Assembly (NCBI RefSeq): GCF_000745185.1
Contig: NZ_JQNJ01000001.1
Location: 1,387,501-1,451,500 of the forward strand
DNA from: Muricauda sp. MAR_2010_75
Lineage (GTDB): Bacteria > Bacteroidota > Bacteroidia > Flavobacteriales > Flavobacteriaceae
Length of the DNA: 64,000 nucleotides
Direction of reading: 5' to 3'
Shown here: in pieces, positions 48,719-63,853 of the stretch
How positions within the stretch are numbered: position 1 is the first letter of the stretch
How the letters are laid out: each line of letters opens with the position of its first letter
Made by a program: the position numbers and the translations under genes
Notes under the pieces: generated by a model
Seen by the model: the letters and a program-made list of their open reading frames with translations, nothing else
Told to the model about the DNA's origin: nothing
Database searches by the model: none

Positions 48719-48793
48719 GGTCAAAAAAGAATGGATCTATTTGGCTCTAATGGGAAGTAGAAATGCCTTGGGATTACAACGAAAAGGAATGTG

Positions 48794-49570
48794 ATGATCA
48801 AAATTTTGGTAACTGGTTCCACGGGTCAACTTGGATTAACATTACAGGAACAGGCCGAGAATTTTCTAGATGGTTCCTTTGATTTCAAGGCATCTGAAGA
48901 ACTGGACATCACCAAACTAAAAGAGCTGGAGAAAATCTTTCAAAAAGGAAAGTATGATTTCTGTATCAATTGCGCCGCATATACCAATGTGGAACAAGCC
49001 GAAAAACATCCTGAAGAAGCCTTTAAGGTGAATGCAGAAGGGGCAAAAAACTTGGCGGCCATTTGCAAAGCACATAAAGCCACGCTGATACATATTTCTA
49101 CAGATTATGTGTTTGATGGGGAAAAAGAAACTCCATATACTGTGGAAGACCAGCCCAATCCGATCAATGAATACGGAAGGTCCAAACTTGCCGGAGAAAA
49201 ATTTATTCAGCAGATTTTACCCAATCATCACATCATCAGGACATCTTGGTTGTACAGTAAAAAGTATGGCCATAATTTCTATCGAACAATCGTGAAAAAG
49301 GCCTTGGCTGGAAAGGGTTTGCATATCACCGACGCTCAAAAAGGTTGCCCAACCAACACCGAAACATTGGCAAGCTTTATTTTGGAGGAAATCGTACTGG
49401 GAAAAAAGCCATTTGGGGTGTATCATTTTACAGATGGAAAACCCATGACATGGTATGAATTTGCCCAGTACATACTGGAAGAAAAAGGTCTGAAGGGGAA
49501 AGTCAACCTTGTTTTGGACTCGAATTATCGTACTTTCGCAAAGCGACCAAAAAATAGTGTTCTTTCTTAG
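48794..49570 (+). CDS. rfbD: dTDP-4-dehydrorhamnose reductase, C terminus shortened
   Basis: RmlD reduces dTDP-4-keto-L-rhamnose to dTDP-L-rhamnose with NAD(P)H. VTGSTGQLG (about 5-13) is the cofactor-binding motif, NCAAYTNVEQAE and HISTDYVFDGE are typical, and YGRSKLAGE provides the catalytic Tyr and Lys. The protein has 258 residues and stops right after RPKNSVLS, whereas most RmlD proteins continue about 25 residues past this motif. ATG 48794 is preferred over the GTG at 48791. It heads the rfbD-rfbB-rfbA-rfbC block. Confidence 0.88.
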   Translation: MIKILVTGSTGQLGLTLQEQAENFLDGSFDFKASEELDITKLKELEKIFQKGKYDFCINCAAYTNVEQAEKHPEEAFKVNAEGAKNLAAICKAHKATLIHISTDYVFDGEKETPYTVEDQPNPINEYGRSKLAGEKFIQQILPNHHIIRTSWLYSKKYGHNFYRTIVKKALAGKGLHITDAQKGCPTNTETLASFILEEIVLGKKPFGVYHFTDGKPMTWYEFAQYILEEKGLKGKVNLVLDSNYRTFAKRPKNSVLS

Positions 49571-49608
49571 CGTTTAAAGGAGAAAATTAAGATTTTAAGG
49601 AAGCTTCC

Positions 49609-50670
49609 ATGGAAAAGAATATTCCCAAGAGCATTTTAATTACAGGAGGAGCAGGTTTTATAGGCTCTCATGTGGTTAGACGATTTGTTGCCCAGTACAG
49701 TAACTACAAAATCGTTAACCTTGATGCTTTGACATATGCTGGGAATTTGGAAAACCTGAAAGATGTTCAGAATACAGCTAACTATTCTTTTGTAAAGGGG
49801 GATATTACAGACACCGACTTTATCAATGACCTATTCTCTAGAAATAAGTTTGATGGCGTGATCCATTTGGCGGCAGAATCCCATGTGGACCGTTCCATTT
49901 CAGACCCACTGTCTTTTGTACGAACCAATGTTTTGGGGACGGTTAACTTGTTGAACGCTTCATTGGAGTTGGCCAAGAACAATCCAAACTTCCTGTTTTA
50001 TCATATAAGCACAGATGAAGTGTACGGAAGTCTGGGAGAAAAGGGGCTTTTTAAGGAAAACACACCGTATAATCCAAACTCCCCCTATTCAGCTTCAAAG
50101 GCAAGTTCAGACCACTTTGTGCGGGCGTATGGTGAAACCTATAAATTACCATATATCATCTCCAATTGCTCCAACAACTATGGACCCAATCAATTCCCAG
50201 AGAAATTGATTCCCCTTTTCATTCACAATATCATACAAAATAAGCCGTTGCCCGTATATGGCGATGGAAATTATACCCGTGATTGGTTGTATGTAAAAGA
50301 TCATGCGGAGGCCATTGATTTGGTATTTCATCAAGGAAAAAAGGGAGAGACCTACAACATTGGCGGTTTTAATGAATGGAAGAACATAGATTTGACCCGA
50401 CTGTTATGTCGGCTAATGGACAAAAAACTCAACAGAGCGGAAGGAACATCGGAAAAACTGATAACCTTTGTAAAAGATCGTCCGGGGCATGATTTAAGAT
50501 ATGCCATTGATGCTTCCAAAATTAATAAGGAACTGGGTTGGGAACCATCAGTAACTTTTGAAGAAGGACTTGAGCAGACTATAGATTGGTATTTTGAGAA
50601 TAAGGATTGGCTTGGGCATGTTACCTCAGGGGATTATTTGGAGTATTATAAAAAACAGTATCAAGAATAA
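49609..50670 (+). CDS. rfbB: dTDP-glucose 4,6-dehydratase
   Basis: The 353-residue SDR enzyme converts dTDP-glucose to dTDP-4-keto-6-deoxyglucose, step 2 of dTDP-rhamnose synthesis. ITGGAGFIGSHVV (about 10-22) is the NAD motif, HLAAESHVDRSI and STDEVYGSLG the active-site region (Thr-Asp-Glu), YSASKASSDH the Y-x3-K pair, and NCSNNYGPNQFPEKLIP the substrate-binding segment. Length and motifs are standard. It lies 38 bp after rfbD and 6 bp before rfbA. Confidence 0.95.
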   Translation: MEKNIPKSILITGGAGFIGSHVVRRFVAQYSNYKIVNLDALTYAGNLENLKDVQNTANYSFVKGDITDTDFINDLFSRNKFDGVIHLAAESHVDRSISDPLSFVRTNVLGTVNLLNASLELAKNNPNFLFYHISTDEVYGSLGEKGLFKENTPYNPNSPYSASKASSDHFVRAYGETYKLPYIISNCSNNYGPNQFPEKLIPLFIHNIIQNKPLPVYGDGNYTRDWLYVKDHAEAIDLVFHQGKKGETYNIGGFNEWKNIDLTRLLCRLMDKKLNRAEGTSEKLITFVKDRPGHDLRYAIDASKINKELGWEPSVTFEEGLEQTIDWYFENKDWLGHVTSGDYLEYYKKQYQE

Positions 50671-50676
50671 CGCATA

Positions 50677-51546
50677 ATGAAGGGAATCATTTTGGCAGGC
50701 GGAACCGGCAGTAGATTGCACCCACTCACCCTTTCAGTGAGCAAGCAGTTGATGCCCATTTACGACAAGCCAATGATTTATTATCCATTGTCTACCCTAA
50801 TGTATGCCGGAATCAAGGAAATCTTGATTATTTCCACCCCAAAGGATTTGCCTTTATTCCGGGAACTTTTGGGAGATGGGCAAAAGTACGGCTGCTCCTT
50901 TTCCTATGCTGTTCAAGAATCACCCAATGGGCTGGCAGAAGCTTTTATCATAGGGGAAGGTTTTATTGGTGCAGACAAAGTGGCTCTTATTTTGGGGGAT
51001 AATATCTTTTATGGAACTGGGCTATCCAATTTGTTACAAGCGAATAACGACCCAGATGGAGGGGTAATCTATGCCTACAGGGTAAATGATCCACAACGAT
51101 ATGGAGTGGTTGAGTTCAATGAGGAAGGAAAGGCCATCAGTATTGAAGAGAAACCAAAGGAACCAAAATCCAACTTTGTGGTGCCGGGCATTTATTTTTA
51201 TGATAACAATGTGATTGGAATTGCCAAAAGCATACAACCTAGTGCTCGGGGTGAATTGGAAATCACCGATGTGAACAAAGCCTATCTGAAGCAGGGCAAG
51301 CTCAATGTCAGTATTTTGGACAGGGGTACAGCATGGTTGGATACAGGTACGTTCCAAGCCCTGATGCAGGCCTCACAATTTGTAGAGGTATTGGAGGAAA
51401 GGCAGGACACCATCATAGGTTCCATAGAAGTAGCCGCTTATGAAATGGGTTACATAACCAAAGAACAGTTTATACAATTGGCCCAACCACTAAAGAAAAG
51501 TGGATATGGAAAAAGACTTTTAGGCATTCTGAATCAAGAGATATGA
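50677..51546 (+). CDS. rfbA: Glucose-1-phosphate thymidylyltransferase
   Basis: The 289-residue nucleotidyltransferase makes dTDP-glucose from glucose 1-phosphate and dTTP, the first step of the rhamnose pathway. [20 protein letters not shown] (about 6-25) is the nucleotide-binding signature with the catalytic Arg and Lys, [10 protein letters not shown] carries the metal-binding Asp, and TAWLDTGT lies near the C terminus. The stop overlaps the rfbC start by 4 bp (ATGA-type coupling). Confidence 0.95.
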
Positions 51547-52094
51547 TTAAAGCAACGGAAACCAAACTAAAGGGATGTTTTGTTTTGGAACCCACCGTGT
51601 TTGAGGATGACAGGGGCTATTTTTATGAAAATCACAACCATAAGGATTTTTGTGAAGCTGTGGGTGGTGAAGTGACCTTTGTACAAGACAATGTTTCCTA
51701 CTCAAAAAAAGGGGTGCTCAGGGGGTTGCATTTTCAGGAGGGAGAACACGCCCAAGCCAAATTGATTTCGGTGTTACAGGGAAGAATTCAAGATGTTGTG
51801 GTAGATTTGCGCCAAGATTCCCCCACTTTTGGTCAGCACATATCAATGGAACTGAGTGATGAGAACAACAAACAGCTCTTTATTCCAAGGGGAATGGCAC
51901 ATGGTTTTTTAACCTTGAGCGAGTCAGCAAAAGTTCTGTACAAATGTGACAATTATTACAATAAAGAAGCGGAGGGGAGCATTAGATACAATGACCCTAT
52001 TTTGGAGATTGATTGGGAAAAGGATTTTGGAGAAATCTTGCTATCAGAAAGAGATGAAAAGGCACAAGACTGGAATATATATTTAAAACAATAG
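51543..52094 (+). CDS. rfbC: dTDP-4-dehydrorhamnose 3,5-epimerase
   Basis: The 183-residue cupin epimerises C3 and C5 of dTDP-4-keto-6-deoxyglucose. [21 protein letters not shown] holds the catalytic His in its first half, [14 protein letters not shown] and [12 protein letters not shown] follow, and [15 protein letters not shown] carries the catalytic Tyr region. With rfbD, rfbB and rfbA, all four enzymes for dTDP-L-rhamnose are present. It is the last gene of the block, with 67 bp to wecB. Confidence 0.95.
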
Positions 52095-52161: not shown

Positions 52162-53295
52162 TTGAAAAAGAAAAAAAACCTTATAGTTTTTGGAACTCGA
52201 CCTGAAGCTATAAAAATGGCTCCTCTGGTAAAACAGTTTGATAAGCATTCGGATGAGTTTGACACTAAAGTGTGTATAACGGCCCAACACCGGGAAATGT
52301 TAGATCAGGTCATTTCATTTTTTGATATAATACCGGACTATGACCTTAACCTTATGAAGCCAAACCAGAATCTTTATGGTTTAACGGCAGATATTATCCT
52401 AGGTTTAAAATCGGTTTTAGAAGATTTTCAGCCAGATTATGTATATGTACATGGCGATACCACCACCACCATGGCGGCTAGCATAGCCTCATTTTATTCT
52501 GGTTCAAAGGTCTGCCACGTTGAAGCAGGACTAAGAACATTTAATAAAAAATCTCCTTTTCCAGAGGAAATGAATCGGTGTGTAACGGGAGTGGTGAGTG
52601 ACATACATTTTGCACCAACAGAGACTTCAAAAGGTAATCTGTTAAAGGAAAACAAAGTCTCCGATTCAATTGTGGTTACAGGCAACACAGTAATAGATGC
52701 GCTACACATGAGTGTTGCAAAAGTCAGGACTGAAACGTATAAAGATCCAGAAATAAGTAAACTATCTCAAATGTTGGATCCGAATAAAAAACTGATTTTG
52801 GTAACGGGCCACCGTAGAGAGAATCATGGCCAAGGCTTTCTGAACATCTGTGAAGCACTAAAAGAGCTTTCAATCAAGTATAGTGATGCTCAAATAGTAT
52901 ACCCTGTTCACCTTAATCCAAAGGTCCAAGCACCCGTTTATAAGATTCTTGGAGATATCCCAAATATAAAACTAATACCCCCATTATCGTATCCATCTTT
53001 TGTATGGCTCATGAATCAATCCTATTTAATTATAACAGATAGTGGAGGGGTACAAGAAGAGGCGCCAAGTTTGGGAAAGCCGGTTTTAGTGATGAGAGAT
53101 ACAACGGAAAGACCAGAAGCGGTAGAAGCTGGAACCGTACTTTTAGTCGGTACAAACAAGGATTTGATTGTATCCGAAGCCTCAAAACTAATGGATGATA
53201 AGAAGGCTTATGATAAAATGAAAAAGCTGCATAATCCTTATGGTGACGGTAATGCGTGTAAAAGAATTGTAGAACATATAAGAAATCAAAAATGA
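52162..53295 (+). CDS. wecB: UDP-N-acetylglucosamine 2-epimerase (non-hydrolysing)
   Basis: The 377-residue GT-B-fold enzyme interconverts UDP-GlcNAc and UDP-ManNAc. VFGTRPEAIKMAPL (about 8-21) is the family signature, YVHGDTTTTMAAS and HVEAGLRTF follow, FPEEMNR is conserved, and TDSGGVQEEAPSLGKPVLVMR (in two parts near 293-314) binds UDP. The start is TTG, since no ATG precedes the GTRPEAIK motif. It overlaps wecC by 4 bp, and the two together yield UDP-ManNAcA. Confidence 0.93.
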   Translation: MKKKKNLIVFGTRPEAIKMAPLVKQFDKHSDEFDTKVCITAQHREMLDQVISFFDIIPDYDLNLMKPNQNLYGLTADIILGLKSVLEDFQPDYVYVHGDTTTTMAASIASFYSGSKVCHVEAGLRTFNKKSPFPEEMNRCVTGVVSDIHFAPTETSKGNLLKENKVSDSIVVTGNTVIDALHMSVAKVRTETYKDPEISKLSQMLDPNKKLILVTGHRRENHGQGFLNICEALKELSIKYSDAQIVYPVHLNPKVQAPVYKILGDIPNIKLIPPLSYPSFVWLMNQSYLIITDSGGVQEEAPSLGKPVLVMRDTTERPEAVEAGTVLLVGTNKDLIVSEASKLMDDKKAYDKMKKLHNPYGDGNACKRIVEHIRNQK

Positions 53296-54506
53296 ACGAC
53301 CCTTCGGTGGTAATGGTGGGATTGGGCTATATTGGCCTACCTACAGCAGCATTGGTAGCACAGAAAAAAACTAAGGTGTTTGGAGTTGATATTAATCCAG
53401 AAGTGGTTAAGACCATTAATGCTGGTAAAATTCATATTGTGGAACCTGAACTTGATTTGGCTGTTTCCAAAGCCGTTGAGTCAGGGTACTTAGAAGCTGG
53501 GACTAAGCCAGTTTCTGCAGACACGTTTATAATTGTGGTACCTACACCGTTCAAAGGAAAAAATGAACCGGATATATCATTTGTACAAGCTGCCACAAAA
53601 TCAGTTTTACCGTTTTTAAAGGAAGGAGATCTATATATTATTGAATCTACCTCGCCAATAGGGACAACCGAAAAAATGCGCGAATACATTTATCAAGAAA
53701 GGCCAGAGCTCAGGGATAAAATCTATATAGCCTATTGTCCCGAAAGAGTATTGCCTGGAAATGTAATGTACGAGTTGGTAAACAATGATCGTGTTATAGG
53801 CGGAATTGATGATGAATCCACAGAAAAGGCTACTGACTTTTATTCACGGTATGTGAAGGGAAGTCTGCATAAGACCAATGCCCGTACCGCAGAAATGTGT
53901 AAACTGGTAGAGAATTCATCAAGAGATGTACAGATAGCCTTTGCAAATGAATTGTCACTGATCTGTGACAAAGCAGATATTAATGTTTGGGAACTAATAG
54001 AATTGGCAAATAAGCACCCCAGAGTCAACATATTACAGCCAGGCTGTGGTGTAGGGGGGCATTGCATTGCAGTAGACCCCTACTTTATCGTTTCAGATTA
54101 TCCGATGGAATCACAAATCATTGGTAAGGCGAGGGAAATAAACAATTATAAATCCTTTTGGTGCGCAGAAAAAATCAAAAACGTCAAACTGGAATTCCAA
54201 TTGAAACATGGCAGAAAACCAAAAATTGCATTGATGGGACTGGCTTTTAAGCCCAACATTGATGATTTAAGGGAATCTCCTGCCAAATATATAGCACAAA
54301 AGGTTTTGCAAGATGCCAATGATGAAGAATATTTCATTGTAGAACCCAATATTGAAGAACATAAGGTTTTTAAACTTACAGATTATAGAGAGGCCGCTAA
54401 AAAGGCTGACATCATTGCTTTTTTAGTGGCTCATGATGAGTTTAAAGCCTTAAACATCAATGAAGACAAATTGGTACTTGATTTTTGTGGGATAATTAAA
54501 AAGTAA
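53292..54506 (+). CDS. wecC: UDP-N-acetyl-D-mannosamine dehydrogenase
   Basis: The 404-residue UDP-sugar dehydrogenase oxidises UDP-ManNAc twice to UDP-ManNAcA using NAD. VGLGYIGLPTAAL (about 8-20) is the NAD motif, CPERVLPG is conserved, and PGCGVGGHCIAVDPYF carries the catalytic Cys. LMGLAFKPNIDDLRESPA marks the C-terminal UDP-binding domain. It sits directly after wecB with overlap, which favours WecC over UDP-glucose dehydrogenases of the same superfamily. Confidence 0.92.
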   Translation: MNDPSVVMVGLGYIGLPTAALVAQKKTKVFGVDINPEVVKTINAGKIHIVEPELDLAVSKAVESGYLEAGTKPVSADTFIIVVPTPFKGKNEPDISFVQAATKSVLPFLKEGDLYIIESTSPIGTTEKMREYIYQERPELRDKIYIAYCPERVLPGNVMYELVNNDRVIGGIDDESTEKATDFYSRYVKGSLHKTNARTAEMCKLVENSSRDVQIAFANELSLICDKADINVWELIELANKHPRVNILQPGCGVGGHCIAVDPYFIVSDYPMESQIIGKAREINNYKSFWCAEKIKNVKLEFQLKHGRKPKIALMGLAFKPNIDDLRESPAKYIAQKVLQDANDEEYFIVEPNIEEHKVFKLTDYREAAKKADIIAFLVAHDEFKALNINEDKLVLDFCGIIKK

Positions 54507-54513
54507 TAAAGAA

Positions 54514-54615
54514 ATGGGATCAGAAGAAATAGATTCTAGGTATTTGATGTTTTTTGAAAAAAACCTGAATGTGCCAAACAATATTAAAACACGAATAAAA
54601 AACAATATAAATTGA
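54514..54615 (+). CDS. Tiny ORF (33 aa) overlapping the cysQ start
   Basis: ATG 54514 opens a frame of 33 residues (start MGSEEIDSRYLMFFEKN) that ends with TGA overlapping the TTG start of cysQ (TTGA). The arrangement would allow translational coupling. The product resembles nothing I know. It may be a leader peptide, a remnant of a lost gene, or chance. Confidence 0.3.
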   Translation: MGSEEIDSRYLMFFEKNLNVPNNIKTRIKNNIN

Positions 54616-55421
54616 CCTCAACAGATTTAGATCAACACATTTCTCTGGCAGTTCAAGCATCTATTGACGCAGGAAAGGCCATCATGGAAATCTATGCCTC
54701 TCCAGATTTCGAGACCGAAATCAAAGAAGATAATTCACCTTTAACCAAGGCCGACAAGGAATCCAACAAGGTCATAATGTCCTATTTGCAAAAGACAAGT
54801 ATTCCCATAATCAGTGAAGAAAACAGAATGCTGGATTATGCAGAAAGAAAAAATTGGGACCTATGTTGGTTGGTAGACCCTTTGGATGGCACAAAGGAGT
54901 TCATCAAAAGAAATGGGGAGTTCACCGTTAATATTGCCTTGATCCAAGATGGAACGCCTATTTTAGGGGTGATTTATGTACCGGTAACCAAGGAGTTGTA
55001 CTATGCAAATGTTCAAGCTAAGGCAGCCTTCAAAGATGTTTTGAAAAACGAAGATGGAACCAACACCCTTTTTTCAAAAGAAAACCAATTGCATTTGAGC
55101 GGAAATCAAAACAAAGAACTTATTAAGGTAGTAGGCAGTAGATCTCATATGAACGAACAAACGGAAAAATTTATTGAGGATTTGAAACAAAAACACGATG
55201 AAGTGGAAATTGTTTCCAAGGGAAGCTCATTAAAATTCTGTCTTGTGGCAGAAGGAAAGGCAGACGTTTATCCAAGGATAGCCCCAACCATGGAATGGGA
55301 CACAGGGGCTGGCCATGCCATCTGTAGTGCAGTGGGCCTGAAAGTAACCCAATGGGAAACAGATCAAGAACTATCCTATAACAAGGAAAATTTGTTGAAC
55401 CCTTATTTCTTGGTTCACTAG
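54612..55421 (+). CDS. cysQ: 3'(2'),5'-bisphosphate nucleotidase
   Basis: The 269-residue inositol-monophosphatase-like enzyme hydrolyses PAP (3'-phosphoadenosine 5'-phosphate) to AMP, and also PAPS to APS. SPLTKADKESN, SEENR, LVDPLDGTKEFIKRNGEFTV and WDTGAGHAI are the metal- and substrate-binding motifs in order. PAP is the inhibitory by-product of sulfotransferases, so its position ahead of cysCDN fits recycling. The start is TTG 54612, as no upstream in-frame ATG exists before a stop. The next gene begins at the following base. Confidence 0.92.
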   Translation: MTSTDLDQHISLAVQASIDAGKAIMEIYASPDFETEIKEDNSPLTKADKESNKVIMSYLQKTSIPIISEENRMLDYAERKNWDLCWLVDPLDGTKEFIKRNGEFTVNIALIQDGTPILGVIYVPVTKELYYANVQAKAAFKDVLKNEDGTNTLFSKENQLHLSGNQNKELIKVVGSRSHMNEQTEKFIEDLKQKHDEVEIVSKGSSLKFCLVAEGKADVYPRIAPTMEWDTGAGHAICSAVGLKVTQWETDQELSYNKENLLNPYFLVH

Positions 55422-55856
55422 ATGGCTAAAGAGGTATCCTATAAAAGGCATTTGGCCAAAACCATTACCTGGCGGTTGGTGGGTACCTTGGACACTATTT
55501 TGTTGTCTTGGGCCATCACTGGAAACCCATTTACGGGACTAAAGATTGGTTTTGCCGAGGTCATCACCAAAATGACCCTGTATTACTTCCATGAAAGGGC
55601 ATGGGTTAAAATAGGGATAGGAGACAGTAGGCGGAGGCACATTTTAAAAACGGTTACTTGGCGGGCCCTAGGAACATTGGATACTATCATACTATCTTGG
55701 ATCATATCTGGAAACCCTTTTACAGGATTAAAGATTGGTTTTGCCGAGGTCATCACCAAAATGATTTTGTATTACTACCACGAAAGAGCATGGTATAGAA
55801 TTAATTACGGATTGGATAAAAGAAATCGTGCAAAGAAATGGAAGAGAACATCATAA
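55422..55856 (+). CDS. Tandem DUF2061 membrane protein
   Basis: The 144-residue protein consists of two nearly identical DUF2061 units (about 8-64 and 70-127). Each has a T.TWR.(L/V)GTLDTI motif, a GNPFTGLKIGFAEVITKM core and a YY.HERAW end, with two hydrophobic stretches per unit. DUF2061 genes commonly sit beside sulfate-activation genes, but I know of no established function. It lies between cysQ (adjacent) and cysC (19-bp overlap) and is the only membrane protein of the module. I infer a link to sulfate or PAPS handling at the membrane, without proof. Confidence 0.85.
   Translation: MAKEVSYKRHLAKTITWRLVGTLDTILLSWAITGNPFTGLKIGFAEVITKMTLYYFHERAWVKIGIGDSRRRHILKTVTWRALGTLDTIILSWIISGNPFTGLKIGFAEVITKMILYYYHERAWYRINYGLDKRNRAKKWKRTS
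55541..55575 (+). repeat. 35-bp direct repeat, copy 1 (DUF2061 unit 1)
   Basis: This stretch is identical to 55730-55764. The two copies lie 189 bp apart and encode the core of each DUF2061 unit. Such exact identity points to a recent duplication or gene conversion. Confidence 0.8.
55730..55764 (+). repeat. 35-bp direct repeat, copy 2 (DUF2061 unit 2)
   Basis: Identical to 55541-55575. See copy 1. Confidence 0.8.
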
Positions 55857-56428
55857 GGCATGACTATAAAATTGGGATGAAAGAAAGAAGAAAGGCCAAT
55901 GGTCATAAGTCTTTCTTGATTTTCTTTACTGGGTTATCCGGTTCTGGAAAATCCACCATTGCCAATGGCCTTGAACAAAAGTTGGTTGAAGAAAACATTA
56001 AAACCTACACGCTAGATGGCGATAATGTTAGAAAGGGAATAAATAAGGATTTAAGTTTCTCCCCTGAAGATCGTTCAGAAAACAACAGAAGGATTGGCGA
56101 AGTGGCCAATTTGTTTGTTGATGCGGGGCTTGTGGTCTTGGCAGCATTTGTGGCACCTTTTGAAAAGGATCGAAACCAAATCAAAGAGACCGTTGGCAAA
56201 GAAAACTATGTGGAGGTTTTTGTCAATACCAGTTTGGAAGAATGTGAGCGGAGAGATGTTAAAGGACTGTATAAAAAAGCAAGAAAAGGTGAAATAAAGG
56301 ATATGACGGGCATATCAAGCCCGTATGAAGTACCTTTGCATCCAGATATTGTTCTTACAGAAAAAGAATCTGTTGAAGAAGCAGTGAACAAAATATATGA
56401 ATTGATTCGACCCAAATTACAATTGTAA
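55838..56428 (+). CDS. cysC: Adenylylsulfate (APS) kinase
   Basis: The 196-residue kinase phosphorylates APS at the 3' position to give PAPS. FFTGLSGSGKSTIAN (about 29-43) is the P-loop, YTLDGDNVRKGINKDLSFSPEDR the substrate region, and AAFVAPFEKDRNQIK and KGLYKKARKGEIKDMTGISS are conserved CysC segments. The stop overlaps the cysD start (TAATG). PAPS is the donor for sulfotransferases. Confidence 0.94.
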   Translation: MEENIIRHDYKIGMKERRKANGHKSFLIFFTGLSGSGKSTIANGLEQKLVEENIKTYTLDGDNVRKGINKDLSFSPEDRSENNRRIGEVANLFVDAGLVVLAAFVAPFEKDRNQIKETVGKENYVEVFVNTSLEECERRDVKGLYKKARKGEIKDMTGISSPYEVPLHPDIVLTEKESVEEAVNKIYELIRPKLQL

Positions 56429-57333
56429 TGAGTAAGTATTATTTGAACTATTTAGACGAGCTGGAGTCCGAGGCCATTTTTGTGCTGAGGGAAGTTTGGG
56501 CTCAATTTCAAAACCCTGTGATTCTGTTTTCAGGAGGGAAAGATTCCATTGTGGTCACCCACTTGGCCCGAAAAGCATTTTATCCCAGCAAAATACCTTT
56601 TGCATTGATGCACGTGGACACCGGACATAACTTTCCAGAAACCATAAAGTTTAGGGACGACCTTATTGAAAACTTGGGCGTTCGGCTCATTGTTGGTTCT
56701 GTACAAGAATCCATAGACCAAGGAAGAGTGGCGGAAGAAAAAGGAAAGAACGCTACAAGAAATGCCCTTCAAATCACTACGCTTTTGGACGCCATTGAAT
56801 CCAACAAAGTAGATTGTGCCATTGGTGGCGGAAGAAGAGATGAGGAAAAGGCCCGTGCCAAGGAACGTTTCTTTTCACACCGGGACGACTTTGGCCAATG
56901 GGACCCCAAGAACCAACGCCCAGAATTGTGGAACATCTTCAACGGAAAACATTTTGAAGGAGAGCATTTTCGGGTTTTCCCGATCAGTAACTGGACCGAA
57001 ATGGATGTCTGGAACTACATCAATCGAGAAAACATCCAGATACCATCTCTGTATTTCGCTCATGAAAGAGAAGTAGTTTGGAGAAGCAATTCCTGGATTC
57101 CCAATTCTGAATTCCTGAAATTGGACGAGGGCGAAGAGGTGGTCACCAAAAAAATACGGTTCAGAACCCTTGGGGATATCACTATTACCGGAGGAATAGA
57201 ATCAGATGCAGATACCGTTGAAAAGATAGCACAAGAGGTATCGGCCATGAGACAAACGGAGCGAGGAAACCGCAGTGACGACAAACGCTCGGAAACTGCA
57301 ATGGAAGACAGAAAGAAACAAGGATATTTTTAG
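56428..57333 (+). CDS. cysD: Sulfate adenylyltransferase subunit 2
   Basis: The 301-residue PP-loop ATPase forms APS from ATP and sulfate together with the GTPase CysN. PVILFSGGKDSIVVTHLARKAF (about 30-51, in two halves) holds the SGGKDS PP-loop motif. GGGRRDEEKARAKERFFSHRD is conserved, and the C terminus carries the QTERGNRSDDK segment typical of CysD. It overlaps cysC by one base and lies 8 bp before cysN. Confidence 0.96.
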   Translation: MSKYYLNYLDELESEAIFVLREVWAQFQNPVILFSGGKDSIVVTHLARKAFYPSKIPFALMHVDTGHNFPETIKFRDDLIENLGVRLIVGSVQESIDQGRVAEEKGKNATRNALQITTLLDAIESNKVDCAIGGGRRDEEKARAKERFFSHRDDFGQWDPKNQRPELWNIFNGKHFEGEHFRVFPISNWTEMDVWNYINRENIQIPSLYFAHEREVVWRSNSWIPNSEFLKLDEGEEVVTKKIRFRTLGDITITGGIESDADTVEKIAQEVSAMRQTERGNRSDDKRSETAMEDRKKQGYF

Positions 57334-57341
57334 AAAAAGAT

Positions 57342-58595
57342 ATGTTGGACAACAATCAACTTTTACGATTTACAACAGCGGGAAGTGTGGACGATGGGAA
57401 AAGTACCCTCATTGGAAGACTGCTATACGATTCCAAGTCAATTTTTGAAGACCAATTGGAAGCCATTGAAACCACCAGTAAGAAGAAGGGTCATGAAGGC
57501 GTAGATTTGGCGCTATTCACCGATGGTCTTCGTGATGAAAGAGAACAAGGTATCACCATTGATGTGGCCTATCGCTATTTCACCACTCCAAAACGGAAGT
57601 TCATTATTGCTGATACTCCTGGGCATATACAATATACCCGAAACATGGTTACTGGAGCTTCAACGGCCAATGCGGCCATTATTTTGGTGGATGCTAGACA
57701 CGGGGTCATTGAACAGACCAAAAGACACGCATTTATTGCATCATTGTTGCAGATACCGCACGTAATTGTGTGTATCAACAAAATGGATTTGGTGGATTTT
57801 TCGGAAGAGGCCTATAACAAAGTTATAGCGCAATTCGAGGAGTTTTCATCCAAATTATTGGTAAAAGATGTGCGGTTTATTCCGATTAGTGCTTTGTTGG
57901 GAGACAATGTGGTGAACAGATCAGAAAACATGGATTGGTACCAAGGCGCTCCTCTGCTGCATACGTTGGAAACCATGCACATTAGTAGTGATACCAATAA
58001 GGTGGATGCCCGATTCCCGGTTCAGACCGTTTTAAGGCCCCAAAGCGAAGAATTCAGGGATTATCGCGGTTATGCAGGACGGGTGGCAAGTGGCGTACTG
58101 CGAAAAGGCGATGAGGTTACCGTGATGCCCTCTGGTTTTGTATCAAAAATCAAATCCATTGACACATTTTCTGGTGAAGTTGAAGAGGCATTCGCACCCA
58201 TGTCCGTTTCCATAACCTTGGAAGACGATATAGATATCAGTAGGGGGGATATGATTGTTCGCTCCAATAACAAACCCAAGGCGCAACAAGATATTGAAGT
58301 GATGCTTTGTTGGTTGAATAACAGCCCAGCAAAACCTAGGGCAAAATATACCATAAAGCATACCTCGAACGAGCAGAAGGCCATGATCAATGAAGTGCTG
58401 TATAAAATTGATATCAACACCTTAAACAGAAGCACCGATGATACAGACATGTCAATGAACGATATTTGCAAAGTGCGTATCAGAACCACAAAACCTTTGA
58501 TGATAGACCCGTATCGCGAGAACCGAACTACAGGAAGCATTATTTTGGTGGACGACGCAACCAACGAGACGGTGGCGGCCGGGATGGTGGTTTGA
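57342..58595 (+). CDS. cysN: Sulfate adenylyltransferase subunit 1 (GTPase)
   Basis: The 417-residue translation-factor-like GTPase drives sulfate adenylation by CysD. AGSVDDGKSTLIGRLLYDSK is the P-loop, EREQGITIDVAYRYF switch I, ADTPGHIQYTRNM the DxxG motif and CINKMDLVDF the NKxD motif. The length indicates CysN alone, not a CysN-CysC fusion, consistent with the separate cysC. It is the last gene of the sulfate-activation block, with 269 bp before the flippase gene. Confidence 0.96.
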   Translation: MLDNNQLLRFTTAGSVDDGKSTLIGRLLYDSKSIFEDQLEAIETTSKKKGHEGVDLALFTDGLRDEREQGITIDVAYRYFTTPKRKFIIADTPGHIQYTRNMVTGASTANAAIILVDARHGVIEQTKRHAFIASLLQIPHVIVCINKMDLVDFSEEAYNKVIAQFEEFSSKLLVKDVRFIPISALLGDNVVNRSENMDWYQGAPLLHTLETMHISSDTNKVDARFPVQTVLRPQSEEFRDYRGYAGRVASGVLRKGDEVTVMPSGFVSKIKSIDTFSGEVEEAFAPMSVSITLEDDIDISRGDMIVRSNNKPKAQQDIEVMLCWLNNSPAKPRAKYTIKHTSNEQKAMINEVLYKIDINTLNRSTDDTDMSMNDICKVRIRTTKPLMIDPYRENRTTGSIILVDDATNETVAAGMVV

Positions 58596-58864
58596 TTTTT
58601 TTTAGAAGGTAATAAATGAAACATCAGGATTCAAGGCACGAATACGTCTGATTATTTGATAATCCAGTCAATTCTAAACCATTAATATGATTAAGGAGGG
58701 GTCTTTACAGACTTTGGCATTGAATGTTGAAGATTTCCGGTAAAGAATGAACAAGTATAGATGCGACAATCAATAAATTATATTGGGATTTTGAAAAAGA
58801 CATAATCAATGTTTCATTAAGAAAAGCTGTTTTGACAATAACGCATTTATATTAGACGGGCAGA

Positions 58865-60163
58865 ATGCTATCTAGACTATTAGGAGAGAACAACGATGTA
58901 AAGGAACTACTGTTTAAAAGTGCTTCTTTTTTCATCATCAAGTCTTTTGGGTTTTTGTCAGGATATATTTTTGTGCTGATTATATCCAATTTATTTGGTG
59001 CTACCGTCAACGGTTATGTGGCAATGTCATTTTCAATTTTTTTGATAGGTTCAATAATACCAAGACTGGGTTTTGACATTAATCTGGTTAAAATGTTTTC
59101 TTCAAAAAGTTTTGGTGAGGCAAAATACTACTATAAAAAATCCATCCTTATATCTGGTTTGATTTCATTAATCATGACCATTGTGGGTTTTGCTCTAAAA
59201 AGGCAGTTCGGAAGCTTACTGGGAATTGAAAATTTGGACTATGTAACCATGGGATTTCTTTCTATCCCACTTTGGACATTTACACTGATTAATTCAGCTG
59301 TCTTAAGGGGGATGAAGGATACCAAGTGGCATTCTTTCTTGACCAATGCTGGCAGGTTCATTTTTGGCCTTATACTTTTATTGACCTTCTATTTTGGAAT
59401 GGATGAAAGAGGCATTGCTGTACCTATCCTTTCCCATACAATAGGAATGGCCGTTCTTGCTTTGGCCTCTTACATTTTGGTTTATAGACGACTTAAAAGC
59501 ATACAATCAGAGAAAGGTGATTTGGAAACTAAGAGCTATATAGTCGATTCAGCCCCACTTATGTTTTCATCCGCCCTTATTTTATTGTTAGGATGGACCG
59601 ACACAATTTTTTTAGGAGTTTTTGATGTAGCTTCCAATGTAGGAATATACCATGTGGTGTTAAAACTTGTTGCGGTTATAGGATTCTCACTTCAATCCAT
59701 GAACAGTATTTTGGCACCAAAAATTGCGAAGTCATACTATACTGGAGACCAAGAAACATTTAACAAGCTCTTACAAACGGTGGTAAAGATTAATTTTTAC
59801 TTTTCAATAGGCTTGATGTTGGTTTTGATTTTGTTCAGAGACCCCATTTTATTATTATTTGGAGAAGAATTTTTAGGTGGGTCAACGCTGCTGGTCATTC
59901 TTTGTGTAGGACAGCTTACAAATACCATCTGTGGTCCTGTAGGAGTTGTTTTTCAAATGACAGGACAGCAAAAAACATTCCAAAACCTTATCTTGATAGC
60001 GTTTCTCATTAATTTGACTCTTAACTTTTTACTGATTCCCACATATGGAATTTACGGAGCGGCCATAAGCAGTATCGTAGGTATGTCTTTTTGGAATTTA
60101 GCGGGGGTTTTTATTATACAAAAGAAGCACGATATTTTATTGATCTACAATCCATTCAAATGA
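58865..60163 (+). CDS. Polysaccharide flippase (Wzx/MATE-like)
   Basis: The 432-residue membrane protein has about 12 predicted helices and the pattern of oligosaccharide flippases (Polysacc_synt/MVF superfamily): SFGFLSGYIFVLIISNLFGA near the N terminus and a C-terminal half ending in helices. It would move lipid-linked repeat units from the cytoplasmic to the periplasmic face. It sits next to a sulfotransferase, polymerase and glycosyltransferase, as expected for Wzx. The stop overlaps the sulfotransferase start (ATGA). Confidence 0.88.
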   Translation: MLSRLLGENNDVKELLFKSASFFIIKSFGFLSGYIFVLIISNLFGATVNGYVAMSFSIFLIGSIIPRLGFDINLVKMFSSKSFGEAKYYYKKSILISGLISLIMTIVGFALKRQFGSLLGIENLDYVTMGFLSIPLWTFTLINSAVLRGMKDTKWHSFLTNAGRFIFGLILLLTFYFGMDERGIAVPILSHTIGMAVLALASYILVYRRLKSIQSEKGDLETKSYIVDSAPLMFSSALILLLGWTDTIFLGVFDVASNVGIYHVVLKLVAVIGFSLQSMNSILAPKIAKSYYTGDQETFNKLLQTVVKINFYFSIGLMLVLILFRDPILLLFGEEFLGGSTLLVILCVGQLTNTICGPVGVVFQMTGQQKTFQNLILIAFLINLTLNFLLIPTYGIYGAAISSIVGMSFWNLAGVFIIQKKHDILLIYNPFK

Positions 60164-60984
60164 AGATAAACACATTTATTATTGGAGTACAAAAAGGGGC
60201 TACAACATCTTTGTACGAGTGGCTTATTCAACACCCTGATGTTTGTGGGGAACTTTATCTGAAAGACTATCCTTTTTTTAGCAATGATGAACTGTTCAAT
60301 AAGGGCTTTGAATTTATTGAAAAGCAATTTACTTCATACGACAATCAAAAAATAGTAATTACCGGATGCGTTGACTATGTTGAAGATAAACAGGGCCTAA
60401 TTAGAATCAAGGAGTATAATCCGGAAGCTAGAATCATACTTCTTTTAAGAAAACCGGAGGAAAGACTAAAATCTGCGTTTAAGTTTTTAAATCAAATATC
60501 ATTGGAGAAACATAATGATATCAATAAAGCTATCGAAAGTGATTCGGAATATATGGAAAGAAGTTTGTATGGAGATAAGCTTGACTACTTATATTCCTTG
60601 TTTCCAGAGAAAAACATTAAAGTGATGCTCTTTGAAAATGTCACCAAATCTTCGGTTGAAGCAACAAAGGAAGTGTTTTCGTTTTTGGGCGTCAGCGAAA
60701 ACCTGGAATTAAATTTCCACAATGCAAACAAGACTGGAGCGGTAAGGTTCAAGTATTTGAACAAGCTGATGTTTGACAAAACGAAAGACAACATATTTAG
60801 GGCTTCAGCAAGAAAATTGTTTGATCCTGGAACACGTGTAAAGCTTAGAAGAGCTATAAAAAATCTAAACACAACCACTCGTAACGATAGTATAAACCTT
60901 GACCTTGATGAAAAGTATAGAAGAATACTTGAAAACGACATGGAAAAGGTTAAAAAATATGTGGATATTGAAGGTTCTTGGTAA
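60160..60984 (+). CDS. PAPS-dependent sulfotransferase
   Basis: Read from ATG 60160 the protein has 274 residues. FIIGVQKGATTSLYEWLIQH (about 5-24) is the 5'-phosphosulfate-binding loop of the sulfotransferase superfamily. LLLRKPEERLKSAFKFLN is the 3'-phosphate-binding region with conserved Arg and Ser. It transfers sulfate from PAPS to hydroxyls, here presumably of a polysaccharide. The longer frame from 60091 lies inside the flippase gene. ATGA overlap couples it to the flippase. The gene and its neighbours look AT-richer than the rfb genes. Confidence 0.88.
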   Translation: MKINTFIIGVQKGATTSLYEWLIQHPDVCGELYLKDYPFFSNDELFNKGFEFIEKQFTSYDNQKIVITGCVDYVEDKQGLIRIKEYNPEARIILLLRKPEERLKSAFKFLNQISLEKHNDINKAIESDSEYMERSLYGDKLDYLYSLFPEKNIKVMLFENVTKSSVEATKEVFSFLGVSENLELNFHNANKTGAVRFKYLNKLMFDKTKDNIFRASARKLFDPGTRVKLRRAIKNLNTTTRNDSINLDLDEKYRRILENDMEKVKKYVDIEGSW

Positions 60985-61011: not shown

Positions 61012-62328
61012 TTGCGGCTAGTGATTTTGGCAAATTTTGATGAACTTGAACATTATCTTAAAACTATTCCCTTGAGATTAAGCTACTCCCATATTGAACA
61101 TAGTGTTGTGCTCTTTTTGGCTTTTTTTGTTTTTTGGGAGTATCCTTTAATGAATTTTGTCAACAAATTTATTGATGTTGGTTTCTTAAGTTATGTAGAC
61201 GAGGTATTGTTGTTATTTATCATATTTAATGGAGCAATCAGGGCTACTTTAAAAAACAGGGTTCTTTTAAAGGAATCTACTGTGTATGTTTCTTTCATAT
61301 ACCTAACACTGATTTCCTTAATATTTGGACTAAATAGGAATTTAATGGATATTGTATTTCAAAACCTTATCCATTTAAAGTTCTTTTTTTTCTTCTATTA
61401 TTTCTTTTTTAGAAAGGATGCTTATACAAATGGAATTGAAAAAACCTTAAAACTTTTATTCTATGGCTCGTTGTTGGGAGTACTCATGAGCATAGTTCTT
61501 AAGTTTAAGTTTTATGATTTTTTTGGTATTCCCATGGAGACGAGGAACGGGGCTTTAAGACACGGGGGTTTTTTCAAGACAAATTTTCTAGCTTTTTTTT
61601 ATTTGCTATTCTATTTGAGAATATTATTGAGTTATTTCCTAAAGCAACAACATCAAAAGGTTTTGATTGTTTCTGTTCTTTTTGCCTTGCTATTTTTAAT
61701 TCTAGGCACTAGGACATCAATTTTCATTATTCCCCTGTCGTTTCTGCTACTTTATGGAGGAAATCTGATAAAAAGCTTGGGAATGAAAGGGTTGCTGGCG
61801 TTTATGGCATTTTCACTGATTGGTCTGTTATTCTTCTCAGACTTTGCTGAAAAGACTTATCAAAACTTCGTTCATGGCTTTGATTTGGAGGGAAGCTATA
61901 TTAGAGGGATTATGTTGCACTTGGGGGGACTAATAAGCCTAGATTATTTTCCCATTGGGACTGGATCGGGTACCTTTGGGACCATTTTTTCTGAAGGGAG
62001 TATTGTATATGACAATTATGGGGTTGGCCATCGCTTCTTTTTTGTAAATATGTTCGGAGTGTATGATAGTAATCTGGCCTCAATATTGGGAGAGTTTGGT
62101 TTTTTGGGAGTTCTCATTTTCTCAACCCTTATTTATTATGTGTTTTCCGCGGTTAAAAAACAGGGGTTGGAAAAAAGATTTTTTATTCTTCTATTAACAA
62201 GCTTTATTCTAAACTTAATTGTGCGTAGTTTGTTAATGAATACTACCCTCGCATTAATATTTGTTTTTGGTTTAATATCTATCTTAAAAGTCAATGAAAA
62301 TTTTATTCGTTTCAAATATGTATCCTAG
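61012..62328 (+). CDS. Wzy-like O-antigen/capsule polymerase
   Basis: The 438-residue integral membrane protein has about 10-11 helices and a large periplasmic loop near residues 285-350. FLILGTRTSIFIIPLSFLLL fits the Wzy_C/O-antigen ligase-type signature region. Wzy proteins polymerise repeat units at the periplasmic face. Between flippase and glycosyltransferase genes this is the expected role, although an O-antigen ligase is possible. No ATG is available near the front. TTG 61012 or GTG 61021 could be the start. It overlaps the next gene by 35 bp. Confidence 0.78.
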   Translation: MRLVILANFDELEHYLKTIPLRLSYSHIEHSVVLFLAFFVFWEYPLMNFVNKFIDVGFLSYVDEVLLLFIIFNGAIRATLKNRVLLKESTVYVSFIYLTLISLIFGLNRNLMDIVFQNLIHLKFFFFFYYFFFRKDAYTNGIEKTLKLLFYGSLLGVLMSIVLKFKFYDFFGIPMETRNGALRHGGFFKTNFLAFFYLLFYLRILLSYFLKQQHQKVLIVSVLFALLFLILGTRTSIFIIPLSFLLLYGGNLIKSLGMKGLLAFMAFSLIGLLFFSDFAEKTYQNFVHGFDLEGSYIRGIMLHLGGLISLDYFPIGTGSGTFGTIFSEGSIVYDNYGVGHRFFFVNMFGVYDSNLASILGEFGFLGVLIFSTLIYYVFSAVKKQGLEKRFFILLLTSFILNLIVRSLLMNTTLALIFVFGLISILKVNENFIRFKYVS

Positions 62329-63331
62329 CAAAGAGAAAGCTTATGCGGGGATCTTTGTTAAAAATCAATTTGAGGAGCTTCAAAAGCAAATTGGTCCAGC
62401 CGACAAGCTGGATATATTTTACATGAAAAGAAGCTTTACGTCTTCAGTGGGTAGTGTTTTTAAATATGTTGGTGCATTTTTCAGGTTTATACCATATTTT
62501 TTTAAGCGGTACGATGTTGTTCATGTCCATTATTTTTTTCCGTTGATTCTTTTGGCATGGGTTAAAAAGAAATTGAACCCTAACACAAAAATAGTGGTAA
62601 CCTTTCTTGGAAGGGATATCAACTCCCAAGTAAATGAAAAGAACAAAGCTTTTTTTCAACGTATTGCTAAAAGTGTGGATTATTCAATACCCGTTGGGAA
62701 AACCATGGCTGACCAGGTACAGAAGAAGCTAAACCTAAATAAGATAAAAATCCTTCCTTGTGGTGTGGATTCAACAATTTTTTACCACGAAAAAGAAACA
62801 CAGAAAGTGTATGATTTTATTTCTGTAGGCTCTTTTATCCATAGAAAAGGAATAGATACAGTAATAGAAGCCATAAAAAAGCTGCCTAAAGGTTCAAATA
62901 TTAAATTTTGTTTCTGTGGATCGGGGGAATACAAAAACCAACTTGTGAAACTTCAAAATGATTATAATATTACAATAAAGGAGAACCAAACCCAGCCTAT
63001 GTTGCGCACGTTGCTCAATCAATCTAGGTTTTTCCTGCTTATGTCCAGGGCCGAGGGGTTTGCTACGGCAACAACGGAGGCCTTTTTTTGCCATGTGCCT
63101 GTATTGACATCAGACATAGACAACTTTAAAGAGCAAGTAACAGTTGGGAAAAATGGATATATGGTACCCTTGGAAGACGCTGAGACCTTGGTAAAAAAGT
63201 TTAATGAGCTCCATGACTTGGGGCAAGAAGAATATGGTAAACTTCAAGTAGGTGCTTCAGAATCTTTTAGGGATGCTTCGCTGTCAAATGTGTGTTCTGA
63301 AATATTGAAGATTTATCATGAGCTTGTTTAA
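62294..63331 (+). CDS. Glycosyltransferase family 4 protein
   Basis: The 345-residue GT-B glycosyltransferase has an N-terminal acceptor domain starting ILFVSNMYPSKEKAYAGIFV. The C-terminal donor domain has SVGSFIHRKGIDTVIEAIKK-like and EGFATATTEAFFCHVPVLTS segments, the latter containing the E-x7-E motif of GT4 retaining enzymes. It transfers a sugar from a nucleotide donor to the growing repeat unit. Donor and linkage cannot be predicted. It starts within the polymerase gene. Confidence 0.9.
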   Translation: MKILFVSNMYPSKEKAYAGIFVKNQFEELQKQIGPADKLDIFYMKRSFTSSVGSVFKYVGAFFRFIPYFFKRYDVVHVHYFFPLILLAWVKKKLNPNTKIVVTFLGRDINSQVNEKNKAFFQRIAKSVDYSIPVGKTMADQVQKKLNLNKIKILPCGVDSTIFYHEKETQKVYDFISVGSFIHRKGIDTVIEAIKKLPKGSNIKFCFCGSGEYKNQLVKLQNDYNITIKENQTQPMLRTLLNQSRFFLLMSRAEGFATATTEAFFCHVPVLTSDIDNFKEQVTVGKNGYMVPLEDAETLVKKFNELHDLGQEEYGKLQVGASESFRDASLSNVCSEILKIYHELV

Positions 63332-63346
63332 ACGGCCCCTAAATCA

Positions 63347-63853
63347 ATGAAAAAGCTTGTTTATCTATTGTATTTGATTTTCTTTAGAAACACTCCTGAG
63401 GATTATAGACCTTATGCCTTGTTTTTTCCTTGGATCAGGAGCAAGATGGTAGGGTTTTATCTAAAAAAATGCGGGGAAAAACCTAGAGTGAAGAGTGGTG
63501 CTGAAATTTCTCCCAATGCAACCTTGGGCGGTTTTTCAGAACTGGGAACACGATGTATGGTGCAAGCAAATGTTCATATTGGCAACAATGTGATTATGGG
63601 ACCCGATGTTAAAATATACTCCAGAAACCATAAATATGATAGACTGGACCTGCCAATTCAAAAACAAGGAAAAAATTATTATGTAACCACCATTGGCAAT
63701 GATGTATGGTTGGGGGCCAATGTAATTATTACTGCAGGGTGTAACATTGGCAACCATGTCATAGTTGCGGCAGGGGCAGTAGTAACCAAAGATGTGCCCG
63801 ATTACGCTATAGTTGGTGGGGTCCCAGCGAAAACCATTGGCACTAGAAAGTAA
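63347..63853 (+). CDS. Hexapeptide-repeat (LbH) acyltransferase
   Basis: The 168-residue protein has left-handed beta-helix repeats (GNNVIMGPDVKIYSRNHKYD, IGNDVWLGANVIITAGCNIG, VIVAAGAVVTKDVPDYAIVG, GGVPAKTIG). These are the signature of NodL/LacA-type or serine acetyltransferase-like enzymes. RNHKYD carries the likely catalytic His. It would O- or N-acetylate a sugar, presumably of the polysaccharide made by this locus. It lies 15 bp after the GT4 gene. Confidence 0.88.
   Translation: MKKLVYLLYLIFFRNTPEDYRPYALFFPWIRSKMVGFYLKKCGEKPRVKSGAEISPNATLGGFSELGTRCMVQANVHIGNNVIMGPDVKIYSRNHKYDRLDLPIQKQGKNYYVTTIGNDVWLGANVIITAGCNIGNHVIVAAGAVVTKDVPDYAIVGGVPAKTIGTRK

Follow-up and report, generated by a model that had tools for sequence, protein, structure and literature searches.

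The closest described systems are the capsule clusters of Vibrio sp. KMM 8419 and Cobetia marina KMM 1449. Their sulfated capsular polymers have structures determined by nuclear magnetic resonance, and the reports describe genes for the synthesis of 3'-phosphoadenosine 5'-phosphosulfate (PAPS), one or more sulfotransferases, rhamnose genes, and glycosyltransferases within one capsule cluster (PMC11641403, PMC11766843). BT_0411-BT_0416 of Bacteroides thetaiotaomicron form a Bacteroidota PAPS cluster directly beside a sulfotransferase gene (PMC9417993), and the synechan (xss) cluster of Synechocystis combines Wzx/Wzy-dependent or similar machinery with two sulfotransferase genes (PMC13125312). 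Comparable genes lie in a polysaccharide locus of Muricauda sp. MAR_2010_75 (Flavobacteriaceae), located in a 64,000-nucleotide stretch (contig NZ_JQNJ01000001.1, positions 1,387,501 to 1,451,500, forward strand; hereafter the window) of a 4.42 Mb genome assembled as one contig.

All genes of the locus are co-directional, running from 48.8 kb to the window end and continuing beyond it, in the order rmlDBAC, wecB, wecC, cysQ, DUF2061, cysC, cysD, cysN, flippase, sulfotransferase (S1), polymerase-like, GT4, and hexapeptide acyltransferase. PAPS-synthesis, sulfotransferase, sugar-nucleotide, assembly, and export genes are thus all present in one cluster by profile matches, with cysC, cysD, cysN, and cysQ above their NCBIfam cut-offs. 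Judging from sequence, we assign a probability of roughly 0.72 to the reading that the locus makes, exports, and sulfates a Wzx/Wzy-type surface or extracellular polysaccharide, and that the same CysDN is also the sole source of adenosine 5'-phosphosulfate (APS) found for cysteine. CysDN would convert sulfate and ATP to APS, which CysC would phosphorylate to PAPS; S1, and probably also a second sulfotransferase of the locus (S2), would use PAPS to sulfate a sugar within the lipid-linked repeat unit, and the by-product 3'-phosphoadenosine 5'-phosphate (PAP) would be removed by CysQ. The same CysDN would feed APS to cysteine synthesis and to two further sulfotransferases elsewhere in the genome. 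We infer the sugar acceptor, sulfation before export, and transcription as an operon; by gene content, the glycan of rhamnose and N-acetylmannosaminuronic acid (ManNAcA) may itself carry the sulfate and may resemble algal polymers, as an earlier note on this DNA suggested.

That earlier note, made from the sequence alone, had proposed polysaccharide sulfation, and this is still the best reading: PAPS genes and a carbohydrate-type sulfotransferase lie together with genes for rhamnose and ManNAcA precursors in a Wzx/Wzy-type locus, and sulfotransferases track APS kinase in 80 genomes. Pfam and NCBIfam profile matches bear out its gene calls and coordinates, including the PAPS-making cysC, cysD, and cysN, the PAP-removing cysQ, and the position of S1 between flippase and polymerase-like gene; the DUF2061 gene went unmentioned there. 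The same note saw no cysH or sulfite reductase, which is correct for the window, where neither stands beside cysDN, and incorrect for the genome. The genome-wide check that it suggested found both genes: a PAPS_reduct search returned the window CysD, a weak PF01507 match at 3.94 Mb, and, at 2.43 Mb, a CysH, whose gene is directly followed by a sulfite reductase gene (696 residues, NIR_SIR). Absence of the two genes from the genome was rejected accordingly. The pair lies ~1 Mb from the window and has no cysDN of its own; its neighbors read as rrf2 and a siroheme-synthesis gene. Elsewhere, APS_kinase matches weakly at 4.05 Mb, and NIR_SIR also matches within an 852-residue frame at 3.08 Mb.

The window cysD is the only one found in the host genome, and a Sat-type ATP sulfurylase, considered as another APS source, gave no match there. 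In G073, which has the CysH closest to the host's among those found (83%), the cysH-sulfite reductase pair likewise lacks cysDN, and polysaccharide genes occur in the region of its Type A module. Because cysH and sulfite reductase are nevertheless present in the host, the window CysDN would have to supply APS for cysteine too, and the window's activation genes appear to be the sole activated-sulfate supply for this pathway. The host CysH (L004:9608-10231) lacks the cysteine pairs of iron-sulfur (FeS) APS reductases. Its nearest solved relatives are the PAPS reductases 6vpu, 1sur, and 2o8v, with which its SFG loop aligns, suggesting that it uses PAPS rather than APS as substrate. A second true APS kinase gene lies at 2.51 Mb beside sulfotransferase S4, so the single-copy step is CysDN, not CysC.

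A search for further sulfotransferases, also suggested by the note, added S2, S3, and S4 to S1. S2 (PF13469; L006:176-994, genome 1451576-1452394) starts 76 bases beyond the window end and belongs to the window's polysaccharide locus, directly upstream of a Wzy_C gene. After S2 come the Wzy_C protein, a sub-threshold deacetylase match, a WecG-type glycosyltransferase, an initiating sugar transferase (Bac_transf), and an epimerase; the next gene reads as purD. S3 (L016:8741-9700, genome 3404741-3405700) has surroundings that look like another polysaccharide locus. No cys genes were detected there by tblastn, which would make S3 dependent on the module in the window. Neither S2 nor S4 had a sequence match in the PDB.

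By sequence and fold, S1 belongs to the NDST/3-OST group of heparan sulfate enzymes, which match it well above SULT enzymes. Fold scores do not favor a steroid-type identity. Structural alignments with heparan sulfate 3-O- and N-sulfotransferases and bacterial 3rnl give 16-24% identity, with a similar fold and similar PAPS-binding residues: S1 keeps the Lys of the 5' phosphosulfate loop and, at the 3' phosphate site, both Arg and Ser, residues that we take to be important for PAPS binding. S1 as a lone query gave no match against the genome contigs, and its single-sequence structure model was of low confidence (pLDDT 36.9).

We searched 120 genomes of the family, one per genus and including the host, with CysD. 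Type A cysD (70-100% identical to that of the window) occurs in 53, in one case as a fragment, and Type B cysD (57-64% identical over its full length) in 52, four of which have both types; the remaining 19 gave a trace of CysD at most. Pairs of CysD proteins share a median identity of 87% within Type A and 85% within Type B, against 60% for pairs across the two types. We then inspected the neighborhoods of 40 Type A genes (host excluded) and 20 Type B genes, over 20 kb each except L062 (5.9 kb) and L073 (18.8 kb). The Type A loci hold cysN (40/40), cysQ (39), cysC (39), DUF2061 (36), and a polysaccharide marker (28), with cysH and sulfite reductase in none. The Type B loci hold cysH, DUF2061, and cysN (20/20 each) and sulfite reductase (16), with cysC, cysQ, and a polysaccharide marker in none. 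DUF2061 (tblastn) accompanies cysDN in both the polysaccharide (36/40) and the assimilatory (20/20) context, a possible sign that it acts in supplying or activating sulfate. The note had called PAPS synthesis for polysaccharide sulfation uncommon in bacteria; this does not hold within the host's family, given Type A in 53 of 120 genera, and agrees with the sulfotransferase profiles matching in only 2 of 14 control genomes.

APS kinases and sulfotransferases were counted in 80 of the 120 genomes, chosen partly by assembly quality: 36 of the 53 with Type A, 36 of the 48 with Type B only, and 8 of the 19 without cysD. The APS kinase profile matched in 51 of the 80, over the Pfam cut-off in 50; we call a cysC true at 190 bits or more, all other matches scoring at most 32 bits, most of them still over that cut-off. 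True cysC is present in all 36 Type A genomes, in 7/36 Type B-only genomes, and in 0/8 without cysD. A sulfotransferase match (PF13469 or PF00685, one position kept per open reading frame (ORF) where matches came in pieces) occurs in 32/36 Type A genomes, 6/7 Type B-only genomes with cysC, 0/29 Type B-only genomes without it, and 0/8 without cysD. Sulfotransferases are therefore found in 38 of 43 genomes with a true APS kinase, one of them (G054, Type B-only with cysC) by a below-cut-off match only, versus 0 of 37 without (Fisher p ~1e-17, uncorrected for relatedness). They also lie close by: 24 of the 36 Type A genomes have at least one within 25 kb of cysD, 34 of 122 matches fall in that range versus ~1.5% expected, and in three of the seven Type B-only genomes with cysC a sulfotransferase lies 3-11 kb from cysC, far from cysD or on another contig. 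An iterated sulfotransferase profile, seeded with 30 ORFs from 43 loci plus S1-S4 (30 kept, 4 unconnected dropped), matched in 18/40 Type A and 0/20 Type B loci. Thus, given the co-occurrence and the proximity to cysD or cysC, PAPS synthesis in this family accompanies sulfotransferases more than cysteine synthesis. Several cysC-bearing genomes have open frames of ~840-890 residues inside which a sulfotransferase profile matches (e.g., G037:C1:509932-510465, G021:C2:2791829-2792353, G059:C1:619274-619807); there are none among the host's matches.

Several observations weigh against polysaccharide sulfation by this locus. S1 has Asp (residue 36 counting from the ATG at 60160) where the Glu of 3-OST-1, presumably catalytic, aligns, and its two nearest relatives also have Asp; among 60 aligned sequences, Glu is commonest at this position (25/60) and Asp occurs in 9/60. 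The co-occurrence counts ignore kinship. Four of the 36 Type A genomes have no sulfotransferase and 12 have none within 25 kb; of the other four Type B-only genomes with cysC, one lacks a sulfotransferase, and in three it is 0.1-2.3 Mb distant or sits on a different contig. Twelve of the 40 Type A loci lack a polysaccharide marker, and the S1-polymerase-GT4 order recurs in only two of the 40, polymerase-like homologs following S1 homologs in two other genera (L094, L095). Finally, the part of G073 that was examined yielded no S1.

The earlier note had also read the PAPS as dedicated to polysaccharide sulfation, with no part in assimilation. For the host this is unlikely: the genome has the module's cysD only, no Sat was found, the cysH-sulfite reductase pair is not accompanied by cysDN, and PAPS reductases are the nearest solved relatives of the CysH, which has the SFG loop. 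Dedicated PAPS may hold elsewhere in the family. We searched 80 genomes with the host CysH, taking every Type A genome (53), every genome without cysD (19), and 8 of the 48 Type B-only genomes; among the Type A genomes, 34 have a family CysH (at least 46% identity), 9 have only a distant CysH-like protein, and 10 have none convincing (8 with no match, 2 with a weak match in a 380-residue frame; some are fragmented assemblies). In these ten, if they truly lack CysH, the Type A module may be dedicated. Two of the nine distant proteins were read (L199, L200), and both carry the FeS APS reductase motif CC...CxxC; such enzymes do not require CysC. In addition, a true APS kinase is lacking in 29 of the 36 genomes whose cysDN is solely assimilatory (matches of at most 32 bits); PAPS seems unneeded for cysteine there.

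It is very unlikely that the module represents ordinary assimilatory activation placed in a polysaccharide locus by chance, with sulfotransferases as minor clients. The module must serve assimilation in the host genome, and 30 of the 49 genomes with Type A and no Type B cysD have a family CysH. However, in the Type B genomes the assimilatory operon has the other cysD type beside cysH, with cysC and cysQ in 0/20 loci read, Type A is kept in the ten genomes without convincing CysH, and sulfotransferases follow cysC (38/43 versus 0/37), none occurring in the 29 assimilatory-only genomes without true cysC. That the substrate of S1 and S2 is instead a lipid, a sterol, or some other small molecule, by analogy with BT_0416 and cholesterol, is similarly improbable: the Bacteroides PAPS cluster beside BT_0416 is a similar neighborhood (PMC9417993), and S2, which lacks a PDB match, could accept such a molecule, but S1 groups with heparan sulfate enzymes well above SULTs (a comparison that did not include BT_0416 itself) and lies between a flippase and a polymerase-like gene.

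The CysH proteins themselves fall into two loop types across 40 genomes, NFRP in 27 and SFG in 13. The NFRP loop is found in all 20 genomes whose assimilatory operon was read, 10 of them without true cysC, and in 6 Type A-only genomes; of the 13 genomes with the SFG loop, 12 are Type A-only, among them the host, and one has no detected cysD. No FeS cysteine pairs are present in 21 aligned CysH. Moss APR-B is described as reducing APS without an FeS cluster (PMC2275785). Because the NFRP type occurs in genomes without true APS kinase and lacks the FeS cysteine pairs, it probably reduces APS in the same way. We tentatively propose, at somewhat less than even odds, that APS is the family's branch point. 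The assimilatory operon would use APS, through an FeS-free NFRP CysH and without APS kinase, and the polysaccharide-linked CysQ-DUF2061-CysC-CysD-CysN module would make PAPS for glycans. In the host lineage, the glycan module would have taken over assimilation as well; the assimilatory operon there has no cysDN, and its CysH is of the SFG, PAPS-type loop kind.

Flavobacteriaceae are known for degrading algal sulfated polysaccharides. If the branch-point proposal is true, about two in five genera would be producers, and not only consumers, of sulfated polymers. A mat study reported no sulfotransferase in any of its Bacteroidetes metagenome-assembled genomes (MAGs), using BLAST at 30% identity or more with queries called largely eukaryotic (PMC9723792); in contrast, Type A cysD occurs here in 53/120 genera, with a sulfotransferase profile match in 32/36 of those tested. 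If the products are sulfated polymers, these bacteria would add to a pool of which they are regarded mainly as consumers, and the loci would be a source of new carbohydrate sulfotransferases. Predictions on cysteine auxotrophy, and on whether a given CysH reduces APS or PAPS, also follow from the wiring.

Table 1 Genes of the polysaccharide locus, with positions in the window
Feature	Position	Strand	Basis
rmlD, rmlB, rmlA, rmlC (dTDP-L-rhamnose synthesis)	48791..52094	+	Pfam RmlD_sub_bind, GDP_Man_Dehyd, NTP_transferase, dTDP_sugar_isom; gene names read from these matches
wecB, UDP-N-acetylglucosamine (UDP-GlcNAc) 2-epimerase	52162..53295	+	TIGR00236, 493.8 bits (cut-off 210.15)
wecC, UDP-N-acetylmannosamine (UDP-ManNAc) dehydrogenase, gives UDP-ManNAcA	53292..54506	+	NF008286 equivalog, 534.9 bits (cut-off 459)
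cysQ, 3'(2'),5'-bisphosphate nucleotidase, removes PAP	54612..55421	+	TIGR01331, 266.8 bits (cut-off 228.8)
DUF2061 protein, between cysQ and cysC	55422..55856	+	PF09834, 2.6e-43
cysC, APS kinase, makes PAPS	55838..56428	+	TIGR00455, 243.4 bits (cut-off 138.7)
cysD, sulfate adenylyltransferase small subunit, Type A	56428..57333	+	TIGR02039, 415.3 bits (cut-off 396.6)
cysN, sulfate adenylyltransferase large subunit, unfused to cysC	57342..58595	+	TIGR02034, 560.5 bits (cut-off 336.1)
Wzx-like flippase	58865..60163	+	MatE and Polysacc_synt; 10 hydrophobic segments
S1, carbohydrate-type sulfotransferase	60160..60984	+	PF00685, 5.6e-10; start overlaps flippase stop (ATGA)
Polymerase-like membrane protein	61012..62328	+	No Pfam match; 11 hydrophobic segments (simple hydropathy count)
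GT4 glycosyltransferase	62294..63331	+	PF00534
Hexapeptide-repeat acyltransferase	63347..63853	+	PF00132

ATGA overlaps at the cysC/cysD and wzx/S1 borders suggest coupled translation. The other borders of the sulfation module are short gaps or overlaps, except for 269 bases between cysN and the flippase. A promoter and terminator scan did not rise above shuffles (33 versus a mean of 29.8, and 9 versus 8.3). On the minus strand, window positions 2244-16529 form a single open frame of 4761 residues.

S4 and the second APS kinase lie in a class I lanthipeptide locus (genome ~2506.4-2518.6 kb; L015:8377-19989(-), L198:3-1569(-)) with LanC, LanB, and a LanB C-terminal protein. A precursor candidate of 48 residues has a Gly-Gly and an end rich in Cys, Thr, Ser, and Tyr; the co-directional downstream genes include S4, the APS kinase, and a DUF6625 gene, with no cysDN. 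A sulfated lanthipeptide with its own PAPS step is possible, and no such case was found among the papers listed on lanthipeptides and sulfotransferases, judged by titles and the beginnings of abstracts.

A second genome scan with CysD, not an independent sample from the 120-genome survey, covered the best 80 of 589 relatives. The closest CysD proteins among these (87-94%) are mostly from Flavobacteriaceae and include those of Winogradskyella, Galbibacter, Marinirhabdus, and Saonia, whose family we looked up, and of genera such as Aequorivita and Salinimicrobium, which we take to belong to it. Lower among the 80 are other Bacteroidota and three MAGs labeled Opitutaceae, Terrimicrobiaceae, and Opitutales. 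By tblastn, host cysH or sulfite reductase matched in none of the 80 loci within the stretches examined, cysC in 68 (four more match the second cysC better), and a polysaccharide or DUF6909 marker in 40. The iterated profile found a sulfotransferase in 20 of these 80 loci, and in 16 of the 59 that span at least 18 kb. One named genome has two Type A cysQ-cysC-cysD-cysN modules ~9 kb apart (L241:0.7-12.2 kb).

Set against the known systems, the host locus differs in several ways, as far as those systems are described. The Vibrio and Cobetia clusters use ABC transporters, whereas the host locus is of the Wzx/Wzy type (PMC11641403, PMC11766843). The Vibrio cysCDN are second copies, whereas the host cysDN is the only one found (PMC11641403), and cysN/cysC is bifunctional in Cobetia and separate in the host (PMC11766843). 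BT_0416 sulfates cholesterol (PMC9417993), whereas S1 falls in a carbohydrate sulfotransferase group and lies in a polysaccharide locus. The synechan cluster is cyanobacterial and described without PAPS genes inside (PMC13125312), unlike the host locus, which holds them. Assimilatory sulfate-reduction operons carry cysH and sulfite reductase beside cysDN, and neither is present in the host window or the 40 Type A loci. In the open-licence literature, judged by titles and the beginnings of abstracts, no publication on such a cluster in Flavobacteriaceae was found. PAPS genes with a sulfotransferase in a capsule cluster have already been published, as in Vibrio and Cobetia. The wiring appears to be the novel part, the sole sulfate-activation system of the genome being the copy in the polysaccharide locus.

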